Positions 26,141 to 29,982 of a DNA stretch of 59,248 bases are shown one piece after another. The notes under the pieces were generated by a model. It was not told the DNA's origin. It did not search any database and worked only from the letters and a program-made list of their open reading frames with translations. The DNA comes from a virus. The position numbers and the translations under genes were made by a program. Numbering within the stretch: the stretch's first letter is position 1; each line of letters begins with the position of its first letter. The stretch spans positions 1 through 59,248 of the IMG/VR virus record IMGVR_UViG_3300047471_000898; one strand, given 5' to 3'.

Positions 26141-26331
26141 TCGCCATGGCCATCGAGCCCGAGGCAGCGGCTACCCAGCCTACCGATCTAGAGCTCGCAC
26201 GCTCCGATCATGCCACCGCGCTGGCGCGAAAGGACCGCAACGCCATCGCGTCGGCTGCCTGGCGCATCTGGTCGATCCTTCGAAACCAGCCTCGTTACGC
26301 GTGGCTCAACAACCCCGTGGGGAGACTATGA
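26137..26331 (+). CDS. Small hypothetical protein (64 aa)
   Basis: TTG 26137 has GGAGG seven bases upstream and overlaps the preceding stop, so it is preferred to ATG 26146. Helical, with a conserved-looking IWSILRNQPRYAWLN segment. No family recognised. Confidence 0.5.
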   Translation: MIAMAIEPEAAATQPTDLELARSDHATALARKDRNAIASAAWRIWSILRNQPRYAWLNNPVGRL

Positions 26332-26702
26332 CCGATCGTTCCGCCCTCTCGAATCTCAACCCGTTCCTCGACACGCACCAGGAGAGCGCGCGCAAGAAGC
26401 TCCCTACGGCGGACACCGTGATCGGGCGCCTGAAAGAGATGGGCATCGAGCGAGCTGCTCGAGCCGTATGCCGCGAGCACGGGCACAACCTCGAGGCGGT
26501 GATGGCCCACAAGTCGTCGCGCAGCAGGGCGAAGAGCATCGCCAGGCGTCGTGTCTGGAAGCTAACGAGCGACACGTTCCCAGACCTCAGCGCGGGGGAG
26601 CTTGGCGACATCTTCGGGCGAGACCACTCGTCGATCCTGTACGGGCTCAGGAAGGCCGAGGCCGAGGCCGAGGCGCGCGTAGGGCGGGGGTGGGCAGCGT
26701 GA
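26328..26702 (+). CDS. Stand-alone DnaA domain IV-like protein A (124 aa)
   Basis: Residues ~75-112 match the DNA-binding domain of DnaA: ARRRVWKLTSDTFPDLSAGELGDIFGRDHSSILYGLRKA, including the GRDHS signature that reads DnaA boxes. The N-terminal half is another helical region. DnaA's AAA+ ATPase is absent, so it cannot act as a full initiator. ATG 26328 follows GGGGAGACT. With a second such protein at 29267 it may compete with or recruit host DnaA. Confidence 0.7.
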   Translation: MTDRSALSNLNPFLDTHQESARKKLPTADTVIGRLKEMGIERAARAVCREHGHNLEAVMAHKSSRSRAKSIARRRVWKLTSDTFPDLSAGELGDIFGRDHSSILYGLRKAEAEAEARVGRGWAA

Positions 26703-26920: not shown

Positions 26921-27399
26921 CCCAAGCCGGCGTCCGTCCCCGCAACCATCCGAAGTGGCTCAAGCCGCTACGAGAGCGATTCGCGGACAAGTTCTGCCCG
27001 GAGCCAAACACGGGCTACTGGTTGTGGACGGGACACTGCGACGAGAATGGGTATGGCCTAGTCAACGTGGCGGGCAAGAACTACAAGGCCCACCGCGTAG
27101 CCTTCTACTTGGCATACGGGCGATGGCCGACGCCTTGCGCTCTGCACCGATGCGACAACCCGGCTTGCGTGAACCCGGCTCACCTCTTCGAGGGAACGAA
27201 GAGGGACAACACGAACGACATGCTCGCAAAGGGCCGCGGGTTCGAGCCACCCAATGCGGCGCTCGGCCGTTCCCGGACTAGTTGCCCTCGTGGGCACGCA
27301 TACGACGAGTCCAACACCCGCAGGCATGCGGGCCGGCGCATCTGCCGGACGTGTGAGCGTCTCCGAATGCGGGCGAATCGCGCGAAGGCAAGGCCATGA
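26917..27399 (+). CDS. HNH endonuclease with zinc tail (160 aa)
   Basis: HNH signature: GYWLWTGHCDENGYG, YKAHRVAFYL, LHRCDNPACVNPAHLFEGTKRDN. The C-terminus CPRGHAYDESNT...CRTCERLR is a zinc domain nearly the same as that of the HNH protein at 15229. Likely a homing or nicking enzyme. It lies within the early operon and is coupled at both ends. Confidence 0.8.
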   Translation: MTQAGVRPRNHPKWLKPLRERFADKFCPEPNTGYWLWTGHCDENGYGLVNVAGKNYKAHRVAFYLAYGRWPTPCALHRCDNPACVNPAHLFEGTKRDNTNDMLAKGRGFEPPNAALGRSRTSCPRGHAYDESNTRRHAGRRICRTCERLRMRANRAKARP

Positions 27400-28139
27400 G
27401 CCAAGCCGGGATACGCTGTCGCAACCACATCCAGCAGGTGCGCACGCGCCAGTCGGAACTGTTCCATGAGTCGGGCGGCCTCGACTCGGTCGACGACAGG
27501 CGCACGCCGGTGCGATTCTTCAACCTGCTTCACGCCGCGTACGACTTCACCGTGGATGCCGCGGCGTCCCCCGAAAACACACTGCTCCATCGCTTCTGGA
27601 CGCGCGACGACGACGCCCTCGAGAAGTCATGGGCCGGCGAGCGCGTGTGGTGCAATCCGCCCTATAGCGCGATTCCCGAGTTCATCGAGAAGGCAGACTT
27701 CGAGCGCCGCAACGGCTGTCCCCTCTCGCTCTTCCTTCTGCCCGCGGACCGCTGCGAGCAGCCGTGGTGGCAGGACTACATCGAAGCGGTGCGCGACCGG
27801 GGCCTCGGCGTGCGCGCACGCTTCATCCGCAAGCGCATCAAGTTCGGGCTCCCGCCCGACCACCCCGACGCCGACAAGGGCCTAGCTGGGGGCAAGCGCG
27901 GGGGCGGCTACCTATACCCGCCGTTCGGGTGCGTGCTCGTGCTCTTCGAGCCGCCCCCCGCGAACGAGCTCGCCGACGTCCTCGGCGGTCGCCTCGCGCG
28001 ACTCGGCCACACGCAACCCGTCTCCGAAGTCGATGACCCGGAGACGGCTGCCGCTGACGAAGTAGGCAGTCTCCATGACGCAAACAGTAACACCGAGACC
28101 GTTACGGTCAACGGTACGGAGGCCGTTACCGATGGCTGA
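27396..28139 (+). CDS. Phage DNA N6-adenine methyltransferase (247 aa)
   Basis: Motif IV is CNPPYS at 86-91, within the typical phage Dam layout: RRTPVRFFNLLHAAYDFTVDAAASPEN (SAM-binding region), WAGERVWCNPPYSAIPEFIEKA, and a C-terminal FGCVLVLFEPP strand. It would methylate adenine in the phage DNA, perhaps at GATC, to evade restriction or control replication; site specificity cannot be read. Its last ~65 bases overlap or adjoin the start of the replication gene and contain iteron-like repeats. Confidence 0.8.
   Translation: MSQAGIRCRNHIQQVRTRQSELFHESGGLDSVDDRRTPVRFFNLLHAAYDFTVDAAASPENTLLHRFWTRDDDALEKSWAGERVWCNPPYSAIPEFIEKADFERRNGCPLSLFLLPADRCEQPWWQDYIEAVRDRGLGVRARFIRKRIKFGLPPDHPDADKGLAGGKRGGGYLYPPFGCVLVLFEPPPANELADVLGGRLARLGHTQPVSEVDDPETAAADEVGSLHDANSNTETVTVNGTEAVTDG
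28075..28131. repeat. Iteron-like 12-bp periodic repeats, upstream cluster
   Basis: CCGTTACG (28099), ACGGTACG (28111) and CCGTTACC (28123) recur every 12 bases. They are inverted relative to the CGTAACGG copies inside the following gene. They lie just before the Shine-Dalgarno GGAGG (28118-28122) of the replication gene. Confidence 0.5.
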
Positions 28140-28995
28140 TTGGGTGCGTTTCCACCGCGAGCTAACCGTGCCTGCGAAGCGCGGGATCCCCCGCGCCGTG
28201 CGGTTCATCTACATGGAGATCTCGCTCGAGGCGAAGCGAAAGCGGGGGTACGTCGTGCTTACTCCGGGGCTCGACGACGTCGCCGCCGTCGCCGAGTGCA
28301 TCGGGGGAGACAGGAGGGAGGTCGCCGCGGCGGTCAAGCTCCTCACGGCTGGATCCGTACCCATGTGGAGGTTCGTAACTGAGGAAGAAGAAAGGCGATT
28401 GTACGTTCACGAGTGGCGCACTTGGAATCCGAGCGACCCTACCGGCTCCGAGCGTCAAGCCAAGTTTCGTAACGGCCACCGTAACGGTACTCATAACGGC
28501 GACAGTCACGATCCCGATCGTAACTGTTCTTCTGGTGTCACGGGGCCTAGCGCGCGCGCGCGCGCTAATCTCCTCTCCTCTCCCTCTAGCTCTGATCTTC
28601 CTCTCGAGAGGGAGAGTCAGAGAGGGTCGGAACCGCTCGAGGCCGACGGCTCCCGGTACGTCCGGCTCACCGACACACTGACCGACGAGTTCCGAGCGAC
28701 CGCGGAGATGGAGCGCGTTCAGGACATCGCCGGCTGCTGGAAGAAATTCCGTGGTCACTACGCCGACCAGTGGATCCACGTAGCCGGCAAGTGGCAATTC
28801 TGGTGCGTCAACGAGGCGAAGCGGGAGCGCGCCGAGAGGGACCGAGCGCGAACCGGGAAGCCAGGCGGCGCTGTCGACCGGGACACCGTCCGTGAGGCGG
28901 CCGAAGCCCGCGACAAGCGCCTGGCTCGCGAACGAGAGATCGAAGAGCGTGCCCGTAAGGCGCTCGAATCCGAACCTACCACGGAGGCCCCATGA
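28132..28995 (+). CDS. Replication organiser candidate (O-like, 287 aa)
   Basis: ATG 28132 has GGAGG nine bases upstream; ATG 28075 in frame is weaker. An N-terminal winged-helix-like region (ADWVRFHRELTV, IYMEISLEAKR, GLDDVAAVAECIGGDRREVAAAVKLL) precedes RLYVHEWRTWN, then a low-complexity linker that carries the DNA repeats, and a helical C-terminus rich in Arg/Glu. Replication genes of lambda-like phages have origin iterons in the same place. No helicase motif is present, so it would load the host helicase. Confidence 0.6.
   Translation: MADWVRFHRELTVPAKRGIPRAVRFIYMEISLEAKRKRGYVVLTPGLDDVAAVAECIGGDRREVAAAVKLLTAGSVPMWRFVTEEEERRLYVHEWRTWNPSDPTGSERQAKFRNGHRNGTHNGDSHDPDRNCSSGVTGPSARARANLLSSPSSSDLPLERESQRGSEPLEADGSRYVRLTDTLTDEFRATAEMERVQDIAGCWKKFRGHYADQWIHVAGKWQFWCVNEAKRERAERDRARTGKPGGAVDRDTVREAAEARDKRLAREREIEERARKALESEPTTEAP
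28468..28612. other. Putative replication origin region
   Basis: Direct iterons CGTAACGG at 28468 and 28480 and CATAACGG at 28492 (12-base period), with CGTAACTG at 28519. Next is a perfect 20-bp palindrome of alternating G and C (28548-28567), then a C/T-rich tract and an imperfect inverted repeat centred on CCTCTCGAGAGG (28607-28618). This density of repeats and secondary structure in a replication gene fits an origin. Confidence 0.5.
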
Positions 28996-29270
28996 GCCAG
29001 CCTGAGCGCGTCTCGTTCCCCTTCAAGCTACCTGAGGGTGTACAGGCACCCGAAAACGCGTCTAGGCCCAACTGGTGCGGAGGAAACGGGTGCGGCAAGC
29101 CGGCCGAGCCACGTACCGCCAGGTGCGCTGCGTGTCGCGACAAGGAATTCACGGCCAACATCCTCGCTAGGCGCGAGAGGGCGGCTGAGGAAAACGACGG
29201 CCGGGCGCTAGCTGCGATCGCAAGCGAAGTCGCTGCTTGGAAGCTCCGGGGAAGGAGGTTTTTCGGATGA
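28992..29270 (+). CDS. Zinc-binding small protein (92 aa)
   Basis: CGGNGCGKP and CAACR give a four-Cys zinc site in the middle, followed by a helical basic end. ATG 28992 overlaps the preceding stop and its stop overlaps the next ATG. It is sandwiched between the replication gene and a DnaA-like gene. Confidence 0.55.
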   Translation: MSQPERVSFPFKLPEGVQAPENASRPNWCGGNGCGKPAEPRTARCAACRDKEFTANILARRERAAEENDGRALAAIASEVAAWKLRGRRFFG

Positions 29271-29587
29271 GCGCCACCGAGTGGACCCCCGAGGAACTCG
29301 ACGCGCGACTCGCCGTCAGGCCCGCACTGCCGCCGGAGGCGCCAGCGTTCGACCCCGCCGCGGTGGCTCGCGACATCGCCCGAGCGCACGGCGTCACTGT
29401 CGACGAGCTCCTCGGCCCGCTGCGCGTCGCCCACATCGTCCGGGCCCGGAAGGAACTCTACGCGACCCTGCGCGCCCGAGGCTGGAGCTACCCGGCGATC
29501 GGGAACTTCGTCGGGGGGCGAGACCATTCGACCGTGATGGCGGGCCTCGGCAAGGCCAAGGGAGCCCGGAAGCAGGTGGCAGCGTGA
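29267..29587 (+). CDS. Stand-alone DnaA domain IV-like protein B (106 aa)
   Basis: The C-terminal ~65 residues copy the DnaA DNA-binding domain: VARDIARAHGVTVDELLGPLRVAHIVRARKELYATLRARGWSYPAIGNFVGGRDHSTVM, with RDHSTV for DnaA-box contact. The match is closer to true DnaA than that of the protein at 26328. No ATPase is present. It may bind DnaA boxes in host or phage DNA to alter replication timing. Confidence 0.75.
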   Translation: MSATEWTPEELDARLAVRPALPPEAPAFDPAAVARDIARAHGVTVDELLGPLRVAHIVRARKELYATLRARGWSYPAIGNFVGGRDHSTVMAGLGKAKGARKQVAA

Positions 29588-29982
29588 CCGGCGTCCTTCT
29601 GCACCTGCCCCTGCGCACCCGCAACCCACTCAACGGCCAGATGGGAAACAGCCGGCTCGCCGCCGTCATTCGCTCGCGAGAGCGCGCCAAGCACCGCGAG
29701 GTGACGCGGCTCCTCGTCGTGGCCCGTCACGCTTCCCCCGAGTTCCCCGGCGAGCCGTACGTCGTCACCCTTACCCGCGTCTCGGCCGGAAGCATGGACG
29801 ACGACGGGCTCGCGGCCTCGATGAAGGGCGTCCGCGACGGCATCGCCGAGGCGCTCGGCATCGACGACGGGGAGCGTGCGCGGCTGCTCTTCAGGTACCG
29901 ACAAAGGAAGGGCAAGCAGCGGCACCACGAGGTCGAGGTGCTCATCGAGACGCGGGTGGCGAAGGAAGGAGCCGCGCAATGA
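29584..29982 (+). CDS. RusA-like Holliday junction resolvase (132 aa)
   Basis: RusA proteins cut Holliday junctions. The acidic motif SMDDDGLAASMKGVRDGIAEALGIDD (70-95) gives Asp72-74, Asp85 and Asp94/95 in the order and spacing of RusA. Length matches. GTG 29584 overlaps the previous stop. It would resolve recombination intermediates from the RecT-like system before packaging. Confidence 0.8.
   Translation: MTGVLLHLPLRTRNPLNGQMGNSRLAAVIRSRERAKHREVTRLLVVARHASPEFPGEPYVVTLTRVSAGSMDDDGLAASMKGVRDGIAEALGIDDGERARLLFRYRQRKGKQRHHEVEVLIETRVAKEGAAQ

Follow-up and report, generated by a model that had tools for sequence, protein, structure and literature searches.

A probable iteron-type replication origin inside and just upstream of a putative DnaD/lambda-O-like initiator gene of a temperate phage

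The window, which is the whole 59,248-nucleotide stretch analyzed here (virus record IMGVR_UViG_3300047471_000898), encodes an integrase, RecT, an exonuclease, an endolysin, a terminase, and head, tail sheath, and baseplate proteins, a gene set that identifies a temperate tailed phage, in this case one of high GC content. On its plus strand, a gene for a Dam-type DNA N6-adenine methyltransferase (27396-28139; PF05869, E=8.9e-21) overlaps the start of a replication initiator (replisome organiser) gene of 287 aa (28132-28995). The reading frame of the latter is open from 28075, which the earlier note had taken as its start; we replaced this with the ATG at 28132, because a Shine-Dalgarno sequence (GGAGG, 28118-28122) precedes it and the early Trp conserved in the family then falls at residue 4. 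A methylase gene upstream of the initiator gene was also found in the phages Murp, DumpsterDude, GMA1, Zucker, and Vasanti, either adjacent or separated from it by one or two small genes. Downstream, the open reading frame at 29584-29982 resembles a RusA-type resolvase by eye, its PHROG match being weak only, and RusA genes lie downstream of the initiator in several actinophages.

Homology of the protein to known phage initiators was established through its relatives only, as the window protein itself yielded no direct Pfam or PHROG match at E<=0.01. The relatives match the PHROGs 'replication initiation', 'O-like', 'DnaD-like helicase loader', and 'replisome organizer', and an hhalign comparison of the window protein with 28 phage initiators gave E=5.8e-8. 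The protein carries the family motif, with an early Trp in the winged-helix part followed by W..x..DPTxxERQ..R, and in the family alignment that includes it W4, E107, R108, and Q109 are invariant. Its plan comprises a winged-helix N-terminus (residues ~1-118), a disordered linker (~125-200) whose coding DNA carries repeat sites (iterons), and a helical C-terminus. The AF2 model (pLDDT 67.8, residues 130-197 below 50) displayed a winged-helix-like N-terminus and a helical C-terminus; a fold search of the whole model against the PDB revealed nothing significant, while its fold neighbors in BFVD were DUF1376 proteins and replication initiators. In the nearest relative (L445; BLASTP 1e-8), the initiator gene directly follows a DnaB-like helicase gene (8e-69). 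We regard the gene product as a putative divergent DnaD/lambda-O-like initiator.

Six iterons fit [CG]GTAAC[GT]G: a pair in inverted orientation ahead of the gene, a lone copy in the wing-coding part, and a group of three in linker-coding DNA. The left cluster (28099-28130, minus strand) comprises CGTAACGG (28099-28106) and, 24 bp from it, GGTAACGG (28123-28130), with the degenerate copy CGTACCGT (28111-28118) in register between them; it lies in the 3' end of the methylase gene and covers the organiser Shine-Dalgarno sequence. A single plus-strand iteron, CGTAACTG (28374-28381), falls in the wing-coding part, where it encodes Val-Thr. The right cluster (28468-28526, plus strand) occupies linker-coding DNA and opens with two copies of CGTAACGG (28468-28475 and 28480-28487); CATAACGG (28492-28499) and the degenerate AGTCACGA (28504-28511) continue the 12-bp register, and a last copy of CGTAACTG (28519-28526) follows 15 bp further on, off register. 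As for inverted symmetry within the iterons, nothing longer than the near-palindromic ACCGTWACGGT was found, at 28098-28108 and 28479-28489. Repeats on both sides of the N-terminal half of the gene had been claimed previously; they do flank it, with the correction that those on the left precede the initiator gene and belong to the final part of the methylase gene.

This clustering exceeds what chance would produce. Half of the 12 [CG]GTAAC[GT]G sites in the 59-kb window crowd into 430 bp, compared with at most two per 480 bp in Markov simulations (300 runs, scored in 480-bp windows); the 8-mer was defined after the sites had been seen, which renders its significance optimistic but leaves the excess of the GTAAC 5-mer unaffected. 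For that 5-mer, seven GTAAC/GTTAC words fall within 440 bp, and the maximum across the 300 simulations was four per 480 bp. The peak of site density at the initiator region is the sole such peak in the window, and the previously reported 12-bp-period repeats in opposite orientation at the two ends are thus real.

Could these repeats be a by-product of a disordered linker that tolerates low-complexity peptides and microsatellite slippage, with no function at the DNA level? The linker is indeed predicted to be disordered, and tail-fiber proteins with VTGNVTG repeats illustrate that the same word can arise from amino-acid repeats. We nonetheless consider this explanation very improbable, as one word occurs in two orientations, several frames, and two genes. 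It is read as Arg-Asn at 28468, 28480, and 28519, as Val-Thr at 28375, and as antisense Val-Thr in the methylase gene (28101 and 28125), and a peptide repeat cannot account for a word in differing frames and strands. In shuffles that preserve the encoded protein, the methylase gene held two GTAACG words against 0.15 expected (p=0.006). For the window initiator gene alone, the strict GTAACG displayed no excess over such shuffles (p=0.15), GTAAC was marginal (p=0.026), and the flanked 8-mer, defined post hoc, gave p=0.001.

The weight of the argument lies in the family. Relatives were reached only through patterns and small alignments: tblastn with the single window protein found none in viral contigs, phage, or genome contig sets, and a further search of genome contigs also returned none. 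They were gathered by the protein motif W..x..DPTxxERQ..R, which is blind to DNA repeats, in a search restricted to CGN arginine codons, so that the sample is biased toward high GC. A scan by iteron pattern mixes initiators with the VTGNVTG tail fibers, and the statistics were therefore redone on motif-selected sets; the pattern GAYCCNACNGGNWSN... was discarded after its two matches both proved to be chance. In 22 non-redundant relatives among the matches listed, GTAACG/CGTTAC was counted 93 times versus 18.3 expected from synonymous shuffles, a 5-fold excess, while 28 control proteins that also carry the motif gave 18 GTAACG versus 12.4 expected. De novo hexamer counts in the motif-selected relatives ranked CGTTAC first (z=19) and CGTAAC second, and the enriched hexamer was present in five of the six frame and strand classes. 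The earlier note had conceded that the iterons might merely reflect RNGH-type amino-acid repeats, a reading that fails on these frames, strands, and counts.

The arrangement of the sites is likewise shared. Spacing in the family peaks at 12 bp (22 cases), 11 bp (12), and 24 bp (6), and 30 of 40 family members carry at least two GTAACG words in the linker, downstream of the AERQ motif; an upstream cluster like that of the window was found in 7 of 40 relatives. The exact word GTAACG is not overrepresented in five of the 22 relatives selected by motif. Variant repeats (CGTGAC or GTAGACG) occur in L179, L192, and L135, no iteron-like repeats were found in L120 and L165, and the actinobacterial-type initiator genes that were compared mostly carry GTCACG/CGTGAC. 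The nearest relative places AGTAACGG-type sites in both wing and linker and then GCGTGCGCGCGCCAAGGCGCGCACGC, in the same order as in the window, and its wing iterons fall at about the same protein position as the window site at 28374-28381.

Directly after the iterons, the window displays a second set of unusual features. The palindrome TAGCGCGCGCGCGCGCGCTA (28548-28567, no strand), of the form TA(GC)8TA and prone to Z-DNA or cruciform formation, is exact, as had been claimed, but its G/C alternation is limited to the inner 16 bases and does not span all 20. In the window, no other perfect palindrome and no other CG alternation is as long (16-base CG alternation anywhere in the window, Markov P=0.025; synonymous gene shuffle, p=0.003). 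Next to it lies the homopyrimidine tract (TCTCC)3CTCT (28569-28587, plus strand), a candidate opening or strand-capture element with a 5-nt period. No other purine/pyrimidine run of the window is as long (19 nt), and the (TCTCC)3 part of the tract (28569-28583) is the single lag-5 repeat run of at least 10 in 59 kb. The window-wide maxima of these three measures (palindrome/CG alternation, purine/pyrimidine run, and lag-5 run) thus lie 20-60 bp past the last iteron. The C/T tract and the inverted repeat noted before both exist, although the latter, TCTTCCTCTCGAG/CTCGAGAGGGAGA (28596-28615, no strand), is imperfect (92% over 13 nt). The AT fraction across 28520-28600 is 0.35-0.45.

Short-period tracts directly after the iterons were found in many relatives, with pentamer units CCCGA, CCCGT, CCCAT, CCCAA, AGAGA, CAGAG, or ACCAG and, in others, hexamer units CAGATA or GACAGG. 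Of 52 family linkers, 24 contained lag-5 runs of at least 10, whereas the N- and C-terminal parts were free of them; the density of these runs in linkers was 11.0 per 10 kb versus 0.13 in all loci (84-fold), compared with 0.8 versus 0.24 for lag-3 runs. Within a coding frame, period-5 DNA yields peptide periods of five codons (PDPTR, PVPSR, REEKR), which indicates that the DNA and not the peptide is repeated. Runs whose period is not a multiple of three, at one place, in unrelated phages, and with differing units further count against a by-product of linker disorder. Inverted repeats are also more frequent in the linkers (28 of 56 genes, versus 7 and 3 for the other parts). The window tract is T-rich on the coding strand, and the relatives' tracts average 7% T. 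A text search for CCCGACCCGACCCGACC, the sequence of the tract, gave no match in open phage papers, and in the open literature we found no earlier description of a short-period tract beside iterons, which we therefore report as new.

The Z-prone palindrome is no general feature of the family. (CG)n recurs in L135, L430, and L440, but it was rejected as a general origin element, since p<=0.05 was reached in only 3 of the 41 relatives. In L445, a GC hairpin (2836-2861) follows the iterons as an analog of the window palindrome, and this recurrence, the sole hint of function, suggests that the palindrome, proposed earlier as an origin part, could act as one in these two phages. A G-quadruplex was likewise rejected as a general principle: no such motif is present in the window initiator gene, and AGAGA and CAGATA units are incapable of forming one. 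Of the 14 actinobacterial-type initiator genes that were checked, 12 contain G-quadruplex motifs, and the (CCCGA, CCCAA, CCCAT)n tracts of L426, L427, L430, L431, L435, L434, and L437, C-rich pentanucleotide tracts that all lie in actinophage initiator genes, display canonical template-strand motifs beside the iterons. Separately, perfect hairpins with the loop CTAACG or TAGC were observed in the organiser linkers of the unrelated L428, L389, L327, L385, and L153 (e.g. TGAATCACCTAACGGTGATTCA); these could represent an additional element, of either origin or RNA type.

Two small proteins that consist of DnaA domain IV only (PF08299) flank the organiser, at 26301-26702 (E=6e-6) and 29267-29587 (E=7e-12); a hexanucleotide repeat (AGGCCG x3.7, 26653-26674) marks the end of the first of these genes. 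Their proximity would fit an arrangement in which they drive the main origin and the organiser acts as a loader. This arrangement appears to us highly unlikely: the window displays no excess of DnaA boxes (two one-mismatch matches versus 1.9 expected, none near 28 kb), the flanking proteins lack an AAA+ part, and the iterons belong to the organiser family. The GC-skew check suggested earlier gave no support either, as the global cumulative skew has no minimum at the candidate origin. Among the subset of window ORFs scanned, no match to a polymerase, helicase, helicase loader, or second initiator was found, and with neither loader nor helicase in that subset, a host helicase is probably recruited.

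Taken together, we consider it very likely that 28.09-28.62 kb constitutes the theta-type origin of this temperate phage, spanning part of the gene that encodes its own DnaD/lambda-O-like initiator and the DNA immediately before it. The comparative evidence thus strongly supports the iteron-containing origin first proposed in the earlier note. Reading the sequence in mechanistic terms, the winged helix of the initiator would bind the CGTAACGG iterons at their 12-bp spacing, about one helical turn, occupying the inverted left cluster before the gene, the single wing site, and the right linker cluster. The phased iterons flank the DNA that encodes the initiator's own DNA-binding part, and the complex would wrap or loop this DNA. 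The assembled complex may then stress the adjacent strand-asymmetric tract, made up of the GC palindrome and the (TCTCC)n pyrimidines, which would open or be captured as a single strand, with the initiator or its helical tail holding the exposed strand and the helical C-terminus recruiting the host replicative helicase. Through the left cluster, the initiator would probably also limit its own synthesis; feedback on organiser expression is likely because this cluster covers the organiser Shine-Dalgarno sequence.

The same overlap of the left cluster with the organiser start and Shine-Dalgarno sequence is what one would expect if the protein were solely a winged-helix autoregulator, its iterons controlling the dam-organiser transcript and replication beginning elsewhere, and winged-helix proteins are frequently repressors. 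We judge this possibility unlikely, given that the relatives are annotated and profiled as initiators and that the majority of sites fall within the gene, in its linker-coding part, with repeat tracts after them, as in the lambda and SPP1 origins.

The layout, repeat tract included, recurs in dozens of unrelated phage genomes. We tentatively propose, as a generalization that may or may not hold, a large and so far unrecognized class of phage origins whose initiator gene contains a DNA code in two parts. A helically phased CGTWACG (or CGTGACG) array would come first, and a strand-asymmetric, often GC-rich tract with a short period of 5 or 6 nt would follow it in place of an AT-rich unwinding element; in the window and in L445, a GC hairpin would belong to the opening element. 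The peptide encoded by the linker (RN/VT/RY, then PDPTR, REEKR, DTDT...) would be mere translation of this code. If so, sequence could be used to predict the origin in many temperate phages for which it has yet to be mapped, actinophages included, and mini-replicon designs would be at hand for vector-poor hosts. Textbook origins carry AT-rich DNA, and the question would become how a GC-rich short-period tract serves in its place.

Among known systems, a DnaA-dependent, oriC-type origin was rejected for want of a DnaA-box cluster. DnaD acts with DnaA at oriC, and we know of no iteron binding by DnaD. Bacillus DnaD binds single strands at paired 5'-TnnT-3' elements (DRE; PMC10201434). The family matches DnaD-like PHROGs, and the window tract contains TCCT twice in (TCTCC)3 as well as other TnnT words, whereas TnnT is not present in the CCCGA or CAGATA tracts of relatives. 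One study of mycobacterial RepA phages reported no repeats and suspected the origin in or next to repA (PMC7157519); the validated Miko RepA replicon was discarded as a test case, being a different kind of protein without such repeats. By eye, the 'RepA-like' gene L442 628-1557 (Mycobacterium phage prophiGD13-2), which has a different N-terminus, displays the same order as the window family in other words, with repeats AACCCTGACGGCACCGTG followed by the G-rich tract GGGTAAGGGTAGGGGTAGGGG.

Closer likenesses are offered by SPP1, lambda, and the actinophages. In SPP1, the replisome organiser gene 38 holds the direct repeats of oriL, to which gp38 binds (PMC6316719), and the window likewise places origin repeats inside the organiser gene; SPP1 differs in its AT-rich DUE, a distant second origin (oriR), and a loader (gp39) and helicase (gp40) of its own. 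In lambda and Stx phages, the origin lies inside the initiator gene O, with iterons in mid-gene and a strand-asymmetric tract adjoining (PMC7466680; PMC5043065), the lambda tract being AT-rich and carrying almost all of its purines on the same strand (PMC5043065). The window shares with ori-lambda the iterons inside the initiator gene and the concentration of purines on one strand of the tract. In lambda, however, O dimers bind iterons that consist of 19-bp inverted repeats, in contrast to an 8-bp core with a 12-bp period, and a 40-bp A+T-rich region lies beside the lambda iterons where the window has a GC/pyrimidine tract that is not A+T-rich. Also unlike lambda, the window has sites upstream of the gene; the subset of ORFs scanned gave no match to a P-like loader. 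The origin is lambda-like in layout and would work in the manner of ori-lambda, but judged on the features tested it falls outside the lambda O family. The actinophage initiators (Gordonia Murp, DumpsterDude, and Zipp; Microbacterium Appa) resemble the window in their winged helix and linker and in repeats followed by a short-period tract, and further in the methylase upstream and, in some, RusA downstream; their iterons are GTCACG/CGTGAC and their tracts G-quadruplex-capable (CCCGA)n, where the window employs CGTAACGG and a TCTCC tract free of G4 motifs.
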